This document shows positions 528 to 62,449 of a stretch of DNA of 64,000 nucleotides, one piece after another; the stretch's first letter is position 1; the number at the start of each line of letters is the position of its first letter. The translations under genes and the position numbers were made by a program. The notes beneath the pieces were generated by a model that saw only the letters and a program-made list of their open reading frames with translations, made no database searches and was not told where the DNA came from. Source of the stretch: Microbacterium sp. SL75 (lineage in GTDB: Bacteria > Actinomycetota > Actinomycetes > Actinomycetales > Microbacteriaceae). Where the stretch lies: assembly GCF_026625865.1 (NCBI RefSeq), contig NZ_CP113067.1, positions 3,372,787 to 3,436,786 on the forward strand, given 5' to 3'.

Positions 528-550
528 ATGTCGGAGGTCCGTTCTACCCT
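528..550 (+). promoter_or_regulatory. RecA_NDp/PafBC-type DNA-damage promoter upstream of alpha/beta hydrolase
   Basis: The sequence reads ATGTCGGAG (528-536), 8 bases, then TACCCT (545-550). This matches the mycobacterial RecA-independent damage promoter consensus tTGTCRGTG-N8-TAnnnT. The -10 ends 6 bases before the ATG at 557, so the transcript is predicted to be leaderless. Four further copies in the window have the same internal geometry. Confidence 0.7.
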
Positions 551-46669: not shown

Positions 46670-48613
46670 CTACCCAGCAAGATGCGCGTGGATGGCCGCG
46701 GCCAGGGTCGGGCCGATGCCCGGCAGCGCCGTGATCTCCTCCGCGGTGGCGTTCTTGAGCGCCGAGACCGAACCGAAGTGCCGCAGAAGCGCCTTGATGC
46801 GGGTGTCGCCGAGACCCGGCACCTCCGCGAGCACGCTCGTGATGTCTCGTTTCCGGCGCTTGCGCTGATGCACGATCGCGAACCGGTGGGCCTCGTCGCG
46901 CAGGCGCTGCAGCAGGTACAACGCCTCCGAGGTGCGAGGCAGGATGACCGGGTACTCCTCCCCCGGCAGCCAGACCTCCTCCAGACGCTTGGCGATGCCG
47001 CACAACGCGATCTCCTCGTGCCCCGCATCGGCGAGGGCACGCGCTGCGGCGGCGACCTGCGGCTGACCGCCGTCGACCACGAGCAGCTGGGGCCGGTAGG
47101 CGAAACGCGGACGCTTTCGCGCGGTCACGACCTCGCCGTCGGCCGTGGCCTCTTCGGAGTCAGGGGCGGCCACGATCGCGCCGTCGATCGTTTCGGGTTC
47201 GATCTCGTCGGGGCGGTCGAGGTACGCGAGGCGCCGGCTGAGCACCTGGTACATCGAGTCGGTGTCGTCCGTCGTCTCGGCGACGCCGAAGGAGCGGTAC
47301 TGGTCCTTGCGTGGGAGACCGTCTTCGAAGACGACCATGGATGCCACGACGTTGGTGCCCGAGAGGTGGGAGATGTCGAAGCATTCGATGCGCAGCGGAG
47401 CCTCGGTCAGGCCGAGCGCTTCCTGGATATCGGTGAGAGCCTGCGACCGGGCGACGTAATCGCTGGTGCGGCGGGTCTTGTGGAGCATCAGCGCCTGTTG
47501 CGCGTTCAGGGTCGCCGTCTTGAGCAGATCGGCCTTGCGACCGCGTTGGGCGATCTGCAGGGTCACCGGTCGGCCGCGTCGCTCGCGCAGCCAGTCCTCG
47601 AGCTGCTCGGCGTCGTCGGGGAGCTCGGGAACGAGCACCTGGCGCGGGATGTCGCCGGCGTCGGCGTCTCCGTACGTTCGCTGGAGCACCTGGTCGACGA
47701 GATCGGCTCCGGAGATGTCGATCTCCTTCTCGATGGTCGTCGCGCGCACGCCGCGCACGCGTCCGCCGCGGACGACGAAGTGCTGCACGGTCGCGGCGAG
47801 TTCGTCTTCCGCGATGCCGAAGAGATCGGCATCCGTATCCGATGCGAGGACGAGCGCGCTCTTTCCGAGCACCGCGTCGATGGCCTGGAGGCGATCGCGG
47901 TAGTGCGCGGCGGATTCGTAGTCCATCGCGGCCGAGGCCTCTTTCATGCGGGCGGTGAGCTCGCGCGTGAAACGCTGATCGCCGCCGGACATGAACGCGA
48001 TGAAGTCGTCGACGACGGCGCGGTGCTCTTCGATCGTCACCTTCATCGAGCACGGGCCGCCGCAACGACCGATCTGCCCCGGGAAACAGGGGCGACCGGA
48101 TGCCATGGCTTTCTTGTACGAGGAGTCGCTGCACGTGCGGATCGGGAAGACCTTGATCATCAGGTCGATCGTGTCGTGCACGGCCCACACCTTCGGATAC
48201 GGACCGAAGTACTTCGCCCCGCGGATCTTGTGGTTGCGCGTGACGATGACGCGCGGGGCCTCGTCGGCGAGGGTGATCGCCATGAACGGGTAGGACTTGT
48301 CGTCGCGATAGCGGACGTTGAAGGGCGGATCGAACTCCTTGATCCACATGAACTCCAGCTGCAAGGAGTCGATATCGCTCGGGACCACCGTCCACTCGAC
48401 GCTCGCCGCCGTGGTCACCATGCGACGCGTGCGCTCGTGGAGCGAATGCAAGGGAGCGAAGTAGTTCGATAGTCGCGCGCGCAGGTTTTTCGCCTTGCCG
48501 ACGTACAGCACGCGCCCCTCGGCATCCCGGAACCGGTAGACCCCCGGGTTGGTGGGGATCTCACCGGCTTTCGGGCGGTACGACAGGTGCGAGACCCGTT
48601 CTCTCGGGGCCAC
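46670..48613 (-). CDS. uvrC: Excinuclease ABC subunit C
   Basis: A 647-residue UvrC that makes both incisions in nucleotide excision repair. The N-terminal GIY-YIG nuclease reads [29 protein letters not shown] domain ([25 protein letters not shown]) binds UvrB. The C-terminal RNase H-like nuclease and tandem helix-hairpin-helix ([22 protein letters not shown] and [12 protein letters not shown]) follow. It starts 2 bases after the uvrA stop, so it depends on the uvrA promoter. Confidence 0.97.
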
Positions 48614-51591: not shown

Positions 51592-51614
51592 AGTCTAGGT
51601 CGGACCTCCGACAT
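51592..51614 (-). promoter_or_regulatory. RecA_NDp/PafBC-type DNA-damage promoter of uvrA
   Basis: On the minus strand: ATGTCGGAG (51614-51606), 8 bases, TAGACT (51597-51592). The -10 ends 6 bases before the GTG start at 51585. Confidence 0.8.
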
Positions 51615-54652: not shown

Positions 54653-54675
54653 AGCGTAGGCGGGGCCTCCGACAT
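54653..54675 (-). promoter_or_regulatory. RecA_NDp/PafBC-type DNA-damage promoter of uvrB
   Basis: On the minus strand: ATGTCGGAG (54675-54667), 8 bases, TACGCT (54658-54653). The -10 ends 6 bases before the ATG at 54646. Confidence 0.8.
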
Positions 54676-59515: not shown

Positions 59516-60067
59516 TCATCCGCTCCGTGCGATCGCCGCGCTCGTCCAGCGGGCGTAGAGGGCCCATGGGTCGTCGACGCCCGCGGCCAGCCCGGTCACG
59601 TGCGCATCGAGTGCCGGGCTCCGGCGGAACCACTCGGTCCTGCCGAAGCGCTCCTCAGCGAAGAGGGCATGGCGGCGGCGCTCCAGCGAACGGTCCCCCG
59701 GCTCGAGAGCGAGAAGCTCGTCGTGCCAGATCGCCGAGAGCCGTTGACGGGGGCTCGCGGTGGTGCCGATCTTGATGCGGTCCTCGAACCTCAGGTAGTA
59801 GACCACGTCCACTCGTGGGGGTGGGAGTTCGTCGTCGACGGTTTCCCCGTGCCGCCACTCGCACACCGCGCACAGCCACCCGCTCGGCCATCGCACGCCC
59901 AGGCGCGAGCCGCAGAGCCGACAGGGCGACGGCAGAACATCGGTCACCCCCTCGGTCGAAGCCGCCCAGTCCGCGCTGACGGCCAGGTGCCACACGCACA
60001 GGGTCACCGGCGCAAGAGGATCGGACGGCTCGTGACACTCCGGCACGAGGCAGTCAGGGGTGGACAT
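59516..60067 (-). CDS. Zinc-finger GIY-YIG (T5orf172-like) nuclease-family protein, predicted DNA-damage inducible
   Basis: A 183-residue protein. The first 70 residues carry two likely zinc sites: Cys6/Cys11/Cys24/His27 and Cys49/Cys52/Cys66/Cys69. The C-terminal domain (about 87-165) is a GIY-YIG nuclease fold of the T5orf172/MUG113 kind: VVYYLRF, KIGTT (99-103), RQRL, then SLERRRHALFAEERFGRTEWF with the conserved Glu and Arg/His. A RecA_NDp-type promoter lies exactly 6 bases before its ATG, so it should be a leaderless, damage-induced gene. A role in DNA repair or restriction is inferred from fold and promoter; it has not been described to my knowledge as a PafBC target. Confidence 0.82.
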   Translation of the reverse strand: MSTPDCLVPECHEPSDPLAPVTLCVWHLAVSADWAASTEGVTDVLPSPCRLCGSRLGVRWPSGWLCAVCEWRHGETVDDELPPPRVDVVYYLRFEDRIKIGTTASPRQRLSAIWHDELLALEPGDRSLERRRHALFAEERFGRTEWFRRSPALDAHVTGLAAGVDDPWALYARWTSAAIARSG

Positions 60068-60073
60068 GCGCTC

Positions 60074-60096
60074 ACGCTATGCCCGACCCCCGACAT
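60074..60096 (-). promoter_or_regulatory. RecA_NDp/PafBC-type DNA-damage promoter of the GIY-YIG gene
   Basis: On the minus strand: ATGTCGGGG (60096-60088), 8 bases, TAGCGT (60079-60074). The -10 ends 6 bases before the ATG at 60067. It begins 5 bases after the stop of the GH13 gene. Confidence 0.75.
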
Positions 60097-60100
60097 CGCT

Positions 60101-62401
60101 TCAGTCCTCGATGACCGGAGGCTCCAGCACGAGGAAAAGGCCGGCGTAGGGACCGAGCTCGAGCGAGAAGCTCTGCAGCTCGTCCACGCGGCCGACGGCT
60201 TCACCCGTCGCCGCGTCGATCGCCGTGCTCTGGGGAACGAGCCACTCGGAGCGTACGGTGCCCTCGATCGTCTCGCCCGAGAAGTTCAGCACCGTGATCT
60301 GCAGGGGGGCCGCCTGGTCTCGCCGATCGCCCCCGTCGAGACGGTGCACCATCACGAGCATGCTGGGGTGACCGACCTGTGGAATGTCGACCTGCGAGGC
60401 GATGGCGATGCCGTGGTCGCCGCGGATCCGCAGGATCTCCTTCAGCCCTGACAGGAAGGACTCCGGGTCCTCCTGCTGCCGTCCGAGCGAGCCGTACAGC
60501 GAACGCGCGCGCGGCACGCCCGACATCGACGACGACGCCTCGGGCGCCACATCGAGCAGGTCGTGCGCTCCGCGCTCGATCCAACGGGTGTCGCCCGTCG
60601 AGATCAGGTGCCGCACATCGTCGGCGGGAAGCGTGAGCGAACCGGTGAGATCCCACCCGGACAACGCGAAGACGCCCGGCTGCCACGAGTTGTACTTCGC
60701 CAGCAGCAGGTGCGCGTCGCGGATCGCCGGGATGTCCTCGTCGGAGATGTCGTCGAGGGTCGCCTTTCCCTGCGTGGCGGCGATGAGGGATGCCGAGGTG
60801 CACGCGATCCCGTTCTGCGTGAAGACGAGATTGTAGTCGGCCTCGACCGTGAGCTTCTCGGTCAGCTCGGCGCGCACCATCTCGGCGATCTCGCCGCCGG
60901 TGTGCTCCTCGTGGCGGAAGGGGTAGACGGTGTCGCGGTGCGTCGTCGCCCAGTGCACGAGCTCGTAGGTCAACTCGTCGTGATTCTGCATGCCGTGCAC
61001 GAGCTGCACGGGCTCGACGCCGGTCTCGAGGGCCGTGGTCAGCGCAAGACGCAGGAATTCGGTGTTCGCCGTGGCGAGAGCGTGGTGATACCCGGGCCGC
61101 GTCACGAAGTCATACGAGAGGTCGGCGCCGACCGCACTGGTGTCGCGGATGTCCTCCATCGTCAGGTTCAGCTCCTGGAAGGTGAAACCGCCCACCTTGC
61201 GCACCATACCGGCGATGATGTGGTTCGCTGCATGGGAGAGCGGATGGCCCTCCGACCACGCCGGCAGACCCTCCGCGCTCTTCTCGACCCCGAGGAAACC
61301 GTTGGCATCGAGGCGAAGCGCACTCGTGCCGAGGTCGCCGAGCGAGTGCAGCGCGTCTCCGATCACGAGCCGCATCCCCGCGAACGTCGGGTCCAGCCAG
61401 TTGATGGACGGCTGCCCCTCTTTGAAGTAGTGCAGGTACACCCAGCGCCGTTCGAGACCGTCGGTACCGACGACCGGTGCCGTGGTGCTCCAGTTCGTCT
61501 CTTTGACGCCGGGGGTGTAGAAGATGACGCGCTGCAGCTCACCGATGATGTAGCCGCGTGCGCTCAGCTCTCGTTCGGTGTCGGCGTCGAGGTTCACGGA
61601 GTCGCGACCCGCGGGTACCTCCGGCAGGAGATCCCAATCCTCGCGCGGGATCTCGACCATGTGGTAGATCCCGGGATAGTCCTTGTAGGCCATCTCGGCG
61701 AGGCGGAAGTCCGCCCCCTTGCCGGTGTGACCGGGGACGATGTCATCGATCACGCTGCCGCCGTGGGACTCCGCGACATCCGCGACGCGACGGAAGGCGT
61801 TCTCGTCGCCGAACTCGGGGTCGATCTGCGTGCTGATCCGGTCGAAGTGACCGTCGACGCTCGGGGTCTCCTGCCATCCCGTGATGCCGCCGGCGCGCTT
61901 CACGGGCCCGGTGTGGATGCCGTTGATCCCCACCCACTCGAAGGCCTCCCACAGTGCCTCGTCTCCGAGTGCCTCCAGGAATGACTCCCCCGGCCGTGTG
62001 ATCAGCGAGATCGGATAGGCCGTGAACCAGACGTCGGTGGATTCGATCGCGCGACGGGCGTCGGGGCGCGCATAGGGGTTCCGCCACATGGACGGCTGGC
62101 CAGAGAGTTGCCGGCTCAGGACGTCGGCGTCTTTCAGCATCGACTGACGCACGAGCCACTCGACGTATGAGGGGTTACCGCCGTTCGCATTGCGAGGATC
62201 GGTCAGGAAACGGCGTAGCGTCCCGCCGCGGAACTGATCACGCGGGCGGAGTCGACGCGGTCGCGCCGGATAGCGCTGCTCGTCGTAGCTGATCTCCGTC
62301 CCGTTCTCGATCGCGTCTTCCGCGTCGCCCGGACCTCCCTCGCCCTGACCCGCGTCGACCATCTCGTCATCCATCGCAGCGCGCTCATCGGCGTCTTCCA
62401 C
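60101..62401 (-). CDS. GH13 alpha-glucan enzyme, trehalose-synthase (TreS)-like
   Basis: A 766-residue (GTG 62401) family GH13 enzyme. Catalytic residues with this start are nucleophile Asp365 (LRLDANGFLG), acid/base Glu410 (FQELNL) and Asp475 (QNHDEL), with the (beta/alpha)8 barrel and a C-terminal beta domain. The pattern is closest to TreS-type maltose/trehalose isomerases and related amylases; the product is not certain. A frame from ATG 62449 exists, but a RecA_NDp-type promoter occupies 62427-62449. GTG 62401, with GGGAGG 5 bases upstream, is therefore the better start. The MFS gene lies upstream on the same strand. Confidence 0.82.
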   Translation of the reverse strand: MEDADERAAMDDEMVDAGQGEGGPGDAEDAIENGTEISYDEQRYPARPRRLRPRDQFRGGTLRRFLTDPRNANGGNPSYVEWLVRQSMLKDADVLSRQLSGQPSMWRNPYARPDARRAIESTDVWFTAYPISLITRPGESFLEALGDEALWEAFEWVGINGIHTGPVKRAGGITGWQETPSVDGHFDRISTQIDPEFGDENAFRRVADVAESHGGSVIDDIVPGHTGKGADFRLAEMAYKDYPGIYHMVEIPREDWDLLPEVPAGRDSVNLDADTERELSARGYIIGELQRVIFYTPGVKETNWSTTAPVVGTDGLERRWVYLHYFKEGQPSINWLDPTFAGMRLVIGDALHSLGDLGTSALRLDANGFLGVEKSAEGLPAWSEGHPLSHAANHIIAGMVRKVGGFTFQELNLTMEDIRDTSAVGADLSYDFVTRPGYHHALATANTEFLRLALTTALETGVEPVQLVHGMQNHDELTYELVHWATTHRDTVYPFRHEEHTGGEIAEMVRAELTEKLTVEADYNLVFTQNGIACTSASLIAATQGKATLDDISDEDIPAIRDAHLLLAKYNSWQPGVFALSGWDLTGSLTLPADDVRHLISTGDTRWIERGAHDLLDVAPEASSSMSGVPRARSLYGSLGRQQEDPESFLSGLKEILRIRGDHGIAIASQVDIPQVGHPSMLVMVHRLDGGDRRDQAAPLQITVLNFSGETIEGTVRSEWLVPQSTAIDAATGEAVGRVDELQSFSLELGPYAGLFLVLEPPVIED

Positions 62402-62426
62402 TCCGACCTCCCTCACGTCATCTACG

Positions 62427-62449
62427 ACGCTAGTCTCTCCCGCCGACAT
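62427..62449 (-). promoter_or_regulatory. RecA_NDp/PafBC-type DNA-damage promoter upstream of the GH13 gene
   Basis: On the minus strand: ATGTCGGCG (62449-62441), 8 bases, TAGCGT (62432-62427). It covers the first codons of the longest frame and places transcription start near 62421, upstream of a ribosome-bound GTG at 62401. Confidence 0.65.

Follow-up and report, generated by a model that had tools for sequence, protein, structure and literature searches.

Among the GIY-YIG proteins, UvrC and Cho are nucleases for DNA damage, and Cho of E. coli is under SOS control. Cho has been described as a second enzyme that incises 3′ of lesions (PMC518961). T5orf172 nucleases, which represent another GIY-YIG branch, are known elsewhere as phage homing or anti-satellite enzymes (PMC8263062, PMC10448857); the proteins carry zinc-finger DNA-binding parts and are common as homing-type genes in phages (PMC10448857). 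Odn (Vibrio phage ICP1 gp88) combines a T5orf172 core with a RepA-like DNA-binding part and acts against a phage satellite; it cuts DNA in vitro, cutting is abolished by the change E180A, and the available portion of its description reports no damage control (PMC8263062). In Bacteroidetes, LexA control has been predicted for a GIY-YIG domain exonuclease resembling the proofreading subunit of DNA polymerase III.

PafBC works through RecA-NDp (PMC6789036, PMC8223512), and its trigger is single-stranded DNA (PMC11804915). The known PafBC targets, recA and uvrB among them, have the same promoter type and regulator class as the gene described here, but an open-literature search found no GIY-YIG protein of its kind named among them. 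The preliminary description of this locus had likewise known of no such PafBC target, and none was found by us in the open literature on PafBC with GIY-YIG or Microbacterium; an open-literature search for a description of the zinc-site GIY-YIG family also gave none.

The zinc-site GIY-YIG gene and its promoter

The gene was studied in a 64-kb window, by which we mean the whole stretch of DNA that was analysed. Its CDS (59516..60067, minus strand; ATG at 60067, TGA at 59518-59516) encodes a 183-aa protein with two predicted zinc sites, the first at residues 6-27 (59987..60052, minus strand; C6-X4-C11-X12-C24-X2-H27) and the second at residues 49-69 (59861..59923, minus strand; C49-X2-C52-X13-C66-X2-C69). 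The ligands of the first site were kept in 219-221 of 224 sequences and those of the second in all 224. Downstream of the zinc sites follow VVYYLRFEDRIKIGT, R109, E129 and EWF, within or near a GIY-YIG core of T5orf172/MUG113 type at residues 88-150 (59618..59806, minus strand; Y90, K99, R109, E129, H133). The gene had been described beforehand as coding for a small T5orf172-like GIY-YIG protein with two predicted N-terminal zinc sites, and the Cys/His sites and the MUG113/T5orf172-type core found here agree with that. When the single sequence was compared with Pfam, both families stayed below the curated cut-off (MUG113 19.4 bits vs 22.3; T5orf172 17.1 vs 20), while at E<=0.01 MUG113 was matched by 48 and T5orf172 by 42 of 52 relatives. 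The NCBIfam scan of the 183-aa protein gave no family.

Ending 6 nt before the ATG of the nuclease gene is a RecA-NDp/PafBC-type promoter, TGTCGGGGGTCGGGCATAGCGT (60074..60095, minus strand). Comparator promoters of the same type stand 6 nt before the start codons of uvrA (51592..51613, minus strand) and uvrB (54653..54674, minus strand); these two genes and uvrC (46670-48613, minus strand) were named by eye. The search pattern TGTCRGNG-N7..9-TANNNT gave five matches in the window, whereas in 100 shuffles it averaged 0.17 and never exceeded 1. With the 6-nt spacing shared by the nuclease gene, uvrA and uvrB and this excess over expectation, the earlier claim that the nuclease gene has the same damage promoter as uvrA and uvrB was confirmed. 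The accompanying hint of a repair nuclease, drawn from UvrC as the other GIY-YIG protein of the window, proved weak: the domain belongs to the T5orf172/MUG113 type, and a profile comparison with the window's UvrC domain, the latter taken as a single sequence, gave no significant link (hhalign probability 0.35%, E 0.17).

Genome-wide, the pattern occurred at 86 sites, against 2 for the reversed pattern, and at 47 of the 81 sites outside the window a start codon lay 4-10 nt downstream. Ten genes behind such sites were picked by eye and then scanned with NCBIfam; recA, recF, radA, sbcD, tag, xth and a DNA polymerase III epsilon-type protein passed the curated cut-off, and an mfd fragment, a RarA-like AAA protein and a protein that we name SRAP-like fell below it. 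Many other sites precede genes which by eye have no evident repair role, such as transporters and metabolic genes. On sequence grounds, the motif marks a real damage regulon in this Microbacterium genome. There were also four WYL matches in the genome, two of them adjacent and in front of a tatC-like gene (by eye), and these two proteins are likely PafB and PafC.

Two further motifs were observed in the window. The upstream neighbour of the nuclease gene is alpha-amylase-like (60101-62449, minus strand; PF00128 at E 7.8e-4, below cut-off), and a RecA-NDp-type motif (62427-62448, minus strand) overlaps its first ATG, so that the likelier start is a GTG near 62416, which lies 10 nt beyond the motif; relatives of this neighbour were seen upstream of the nuclease gene in 27 of 80 named loci. 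At 529-550 (plus strand), another such motif stands 6 nt before the ATG of an ORF resembling an alpha/beta hydrolase.

PafBC-type and SOS-type operators among the orthologues

The nuclease gene was found in 181 of 398 family genomes and 44 of 85 genera; it was absent from 217 of the 398, and is therefore not needed for repair in general. An even draw of its own genus gave 7 of 13 genomes, and a class-level draw 15 of 394, of which a single one belongs to a different order. Two genomes (G840, G889) had two matches each and the other matching family genomes had one.

Upstream regions were read at 141 family loci, which come from the 181 matching genomes and lean to the better-scoring ones; two distant loci (L025, L026) were excluded after a first reading of 98 loci. 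The PafBC-type motif was present with at most one mismatch at 106 of the 141 (104 in the main count plus L023 and L024), and at 94 of these 104 a start codon followed 0-15 nt downstream. Another 12 loci had a two-mismatch motif with the start codon in place, and 17 had neither this motif nor an SOS box at the thresholds used (19 before L023 and L024 were reassigned). Among the 80 named loci, the motif was seen with at most one mismatch in 70 and with two in 4, while 4 had an SOS box and 2 had neither; the family, named and other locus sets overlap in genomes, and their counts are not additive. An 80-member relative set consisted of the best 80 of 125 relatives. In controls, the motif with at most one mismatch appeared in 5 of 1125 shuffles and in 38 of 944 neighbouring windows, the latter being real DNA that contains real sites of other genes. 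The orthologue promoter conservation considered in the preliminary description thus held for the 106 loci, and it did not extend in this form to the 12 with two mismatches, the 17 with neither operator, or 6 with an SOS box. Three genomes of the window's own genus (L022, L023, L024) carry a shorter form of the gene, which lacks the first zinc site, forms a separate branch and has a PafBC-type site with at most one mismatch.

At these 6 family loci, and additionally in Arthrobacter copies, an SOS box replaces the PafBC-type motif. The palindrome resembles TCGAAC-N4-GTTCGA and was found at Arthrobacter loci L012, L013, L082, L100 and L104, at loci L145, L165, L168 and L191 of genus g244, and at L014 and L015 of two genomes of genus g2 (L012 and L013 group with the named Arthrobacter loci, and L013 and L104 look like one genome). 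The SOS box of Streptomyces venezuelae is given as tCGAAC-N4-GNNCGa (PMC9380542), and to judge from its letters the palindrome upstream of these orthologues is the actinobacterial SOS box. With one mismatch it occurred in 3 of 1125 shuffles and in none of the 944 neighbouring windows. Two mismatches taken alone were rejected as too loose a threshold, since 132 of the 944 windows reached it. The sole SOS-type locus with two mismatches, L082, has its match at the position where its Arthrobacter relatives carry the box; the two-mismatch SOS match at L250, which has a perfect PafBC-type site, is at chance level. None of 98 loci passed both the PafBC-type and the SOS thresholds, and no SOS box was found upstream of the window's nuclease gene, where the best match has four mismatches.

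The surroundings of other boxes support the LexA-box reading. In G238 (g2), an exact box is flanked by an imuA-like gene on one side and, on the other, by an SRAP-like gene that has a PafBC-type site as well (names by eye). A radical SAM gene (by eye) stands behind an exact box in G238, in G021 and in the window's own genome. The PafBC-type motif itself was abundant in the four g244 genomes (30 to 49 sites each vs 3 to 9 controls), in G238 (40 vs 2) and in G021 (27 vs 3), with little excess in the Arthrobacter-type genomes G041 and G113 (22 vs 6 and 13 vs 5). Both positions were at hand for five SOS-type genomes (G682, G753, G807, G238, G021), and in all five uvrB is preceded by a PafBC-type site, with 6 or 7 nt between the two. 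As read from these operators, uvrB has stayed with PafBC in the five genomes and the nuclease gene uses LexA. An SOS box at some orthologues together with the retained uvrB site indicates that damage control was conserved while the regulator changed. That two unrelated regulators answering to the same trigger would act on one orthologous gene is what speaks most strongly for a damage function.

In mycobacteria, part of the regulon is described as carrying both signals (PMC8223512), which would offer a simple path for a regulator swap. The protein tree was built from 112 of 202 sequences left after L115, L116, L021, L104 and exact duplicates had been dropped; it is midpoint-rooted, so it gives no direction of regulator change. 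In the best tree and over the bootstrap range, the SOS label needs two changes, one for g244 with Arthrobacter and one for the g2 pair; with well-supported branches alone only one change is forced, and the alignment is short. The Arthrobacter copies are placed with g244 (support 99/84), the grouping that joint transfer of gene and box would produce.

Further features of these boxes were seen in passing. In several SOS-type genes (L332-L334, L094, L100), the start codon is inside the LexA box and the proteins begin with MFE, MFD, VFE or VFD; bound LexA would thereby cover the beginning of a leaderless message. The radical SAM gene behind the exact SOS box of the window's own genome (L339:2-1210, minus strand, near G000:C1:1607578) is apparently split by an intein that carries a LAGLIDADG domain, with matches to Hom_end_hint (below cut-off) and LAGLIDADG_3; by eye, the copy in G238 (L335) looks similarly interrupted and that in G021 (L336) is uninterrupted.

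Catalytic residues and relatives

Loss of the catalytic GIY-YIG residues on alignment had been named in advance as an outcome that would speak against a nuclease, and the reverse was observed: R109, E129 and H133 were present in 224 of 224 sequences. Y90 and K99 were also found in all 224, partly by selection, as the loci were located with the pattern VVYY...KIG, which makes the invariance of Y90, K99 and G101 partly a product of the locator; no locus failed to match it, and selection of this kind did not affect R109, E129 or the zinc ligands. At a dN/dS of 0.11-0.21 in nine pairs, the nuclease gene is under purifying selection.

The tyrosine of YIG is replaced by lysine (K99) in this family. 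Lysine occupies the same place in R.Hpy188I (PMC2630997) and, in the multiple alignment, in Odn, which is active, so K99 is no bar to activity. The window protein and Odn are 21% identical in the alignment and share Y90, K99, G101, R109, E129 and H133, with zinc sites in the former in place of the RepA-like part of the latter. The catalytically required E180 of Odn falls on E129 both in the profile comparison and in the multiple alignment; the profile comparison scored weakly (probability 2.5%, E 0.018), and the register thus rests on the conserved residues and the shared Pfam families. By alignment, the GIY-YIG core is intact, and the 183-aa protein is probably an active nuclease.

The protein search returned 1269 relatives at E<=0.001; named organisms among the 120 matches listed were mostly Microbacterium, and the labels were GIY-YIG nuclease family protein or hypothetical protein. 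The protein also matched PHROG 8604, of unknown function, at 5e-20. A phage protein of the PHROG 8604 type, gp91 of Mycobacterium phage Leozinho, is 34% identical to it and has a MUG113 core and, by eye, two Cys/His sites, but unlike the chromosomal window gene it is located in a phage gene cluster behind a helix-turn-helix gene. Relatives were held in 86 phage records, and in MissRona and Dorito a resolvase gene (RuvC-like, RusA-like) lies within about 2.5 kb of the relative. A distant DNA search of phages gave 8 records with 47 bases each, all Gordonia phages, and a plasmid search gave 8 Streptomyces records, none of which covers 80% of the protein.

Candidate roles of the nuclease

Within the 5-kb flank of the nuclease gene, uvrB was found in 21 of the 80 named loci, often so in Microbacterium; among six same-genus genomes it lay within 10 kb in three, and the other three carry the short gene form. 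As a general rule this linkage was rejected, because same-contig distances were below 10 kb in 3 of 61 cases and at least 73 kb in the other 58, and in 19 of 80 genomes the two genes were on different contigs. The uvrB linkage is confined to part of Microbacterium. At seven Frigoribacterium loci (L062, L064, L068, L074, L075, L088, L091), the nuclease gene is followed at a distance of 1.5 to 2.6 kb by a downstream UvrA-like gene, which shares about 45% identity with UvrA of the window. Such proximity to uvr genes is only a hint.

Several other functions would fit a nuclease of this type, and the evidence weighs on them unequally. The most serious is defence, in which infection or prophage induction would trigger the damage response and the protein would cut phage or plasmid DNA. 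Odn, a proven relative, cuts phage-satellite DNA (PMC8263062), and the patchy distribution of the gene (181 of 398 family genomes) is of the kind often seen for defence genes. However, none of 52 members matched a PADLOC model at E<=0.01, none of five loci viewed by eye (three SOS-type, two PafBC-type) was an obvious defence island or prophage, and control by a damage circuit is kept across lineages; we consider defence unlikely. Even less is to be expected of a homing-type endonuclease gene, selfish and standing behind a damage promoter by chance. Zinc-finger T5orf172 proteins are common as phage genes of that type (PMC10448857), and the 86 phage records agree with such an origin, but the gene has its own promoter across the family, the change of regulator preserves damage control, nearly all matching family genomes hold a single match, and a viral_contigs scan with the single 183-aa protein gave no relative. 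This reading is the most improbable of those weighed here.

The lysine in place of the YIG tyrosine could also be taken to mean that the protein is a DNA binder which no longer cuts, and which serves to tag or protect damaged DNA or, in the manner possible for I-TevI, to repress transcription; T5orf172 proteins have zinc-finger DNA-binding parts, and I-TevI is cited as being also a repressor (PMC10448857). The universal retention of R109, E129 and H133 argues against it, as does the same lysine in R.Hpy188I (PMC2630997) and in the active nuclease Odn, and we give it a rather small chance, below that of defence. That the protein is an effector which acts on RNA or is toxic, and which damage would release, for instance to stop growth, is scarcely more probable than the homing-type gene. 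Damage control by itself cannot separate DNA repair from growth arrest, and zinc ribbons also bind RNA. A search of solved structures with the single 183-aa sequence gave no match, and the one match of the profile search was a ribosomal zinc ribbon at chance level (E 0.27). The nearest tested relative, Odn, is by contrast a DNA endonuclease (PMC8263062).

A damage-induced DNA endonuclease with a repair role is the explanation we prefer, at about even chances when taken as a whole. Its parts differ in strength: induction of the gene by damage is very probable, a role in repair is favoured by a little, targeting of a DNA structure is weakly indicated, and a role in excision or on crosslinks is possible. 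Under this preferred explanation, damage would produce single-stranded DNA that activates PafBC, RNA polymerase would then fire the RecA-NDp promoter of the nuclease gene, and the transcript, probably leaderless, would yield protein at once; in other lineages the release of LexA would do the same job. The two N-terminal zinc sites would bind DNA, probably at an unusual structure or a damaged stretch and not at a fixed sequence, and the T5orf172-type core (Y90, K99, R109, E129 and a divalent metal) would nick it to feed repair.

More tentatively, and with less confidence than in any of the graded parts of nuclease activity, induction and repair, these genes may form an undescribed family of Microbacteriaceae repair endonucleases related to phage T5orf172 nucleases. 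Most lineages would have the gene under PafBC, and at least one other lineage, probably two, would have it under LexA. The zinc ribbons of the family would read damaged or branched DNA, and the enzyme would be a structure-specific incision enzyme like Cho or Slx1 from a different GIY-YIG branch. What appears to be new here is a T5orf172-type nuclease under predicted chromosomal damage control, whose orthologues between them carry operators of both the PafBC and the LexA type.

If true, this would mean that a T5orf172-type enzyme has been taken into the DNA-damage response, as a chromosomal branch which occurs in 44 of the 85 genera of one family and is mostly damage-controlled in the loci read. 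The gene is short, is mostly present in one copy and can easily be deleted. With orthologues that use PafBC and others that use LexA, nature would have provided an experiment on the exchange of targets between two damage circuits, and these orthologues speak for a damage function ahead of any assay.
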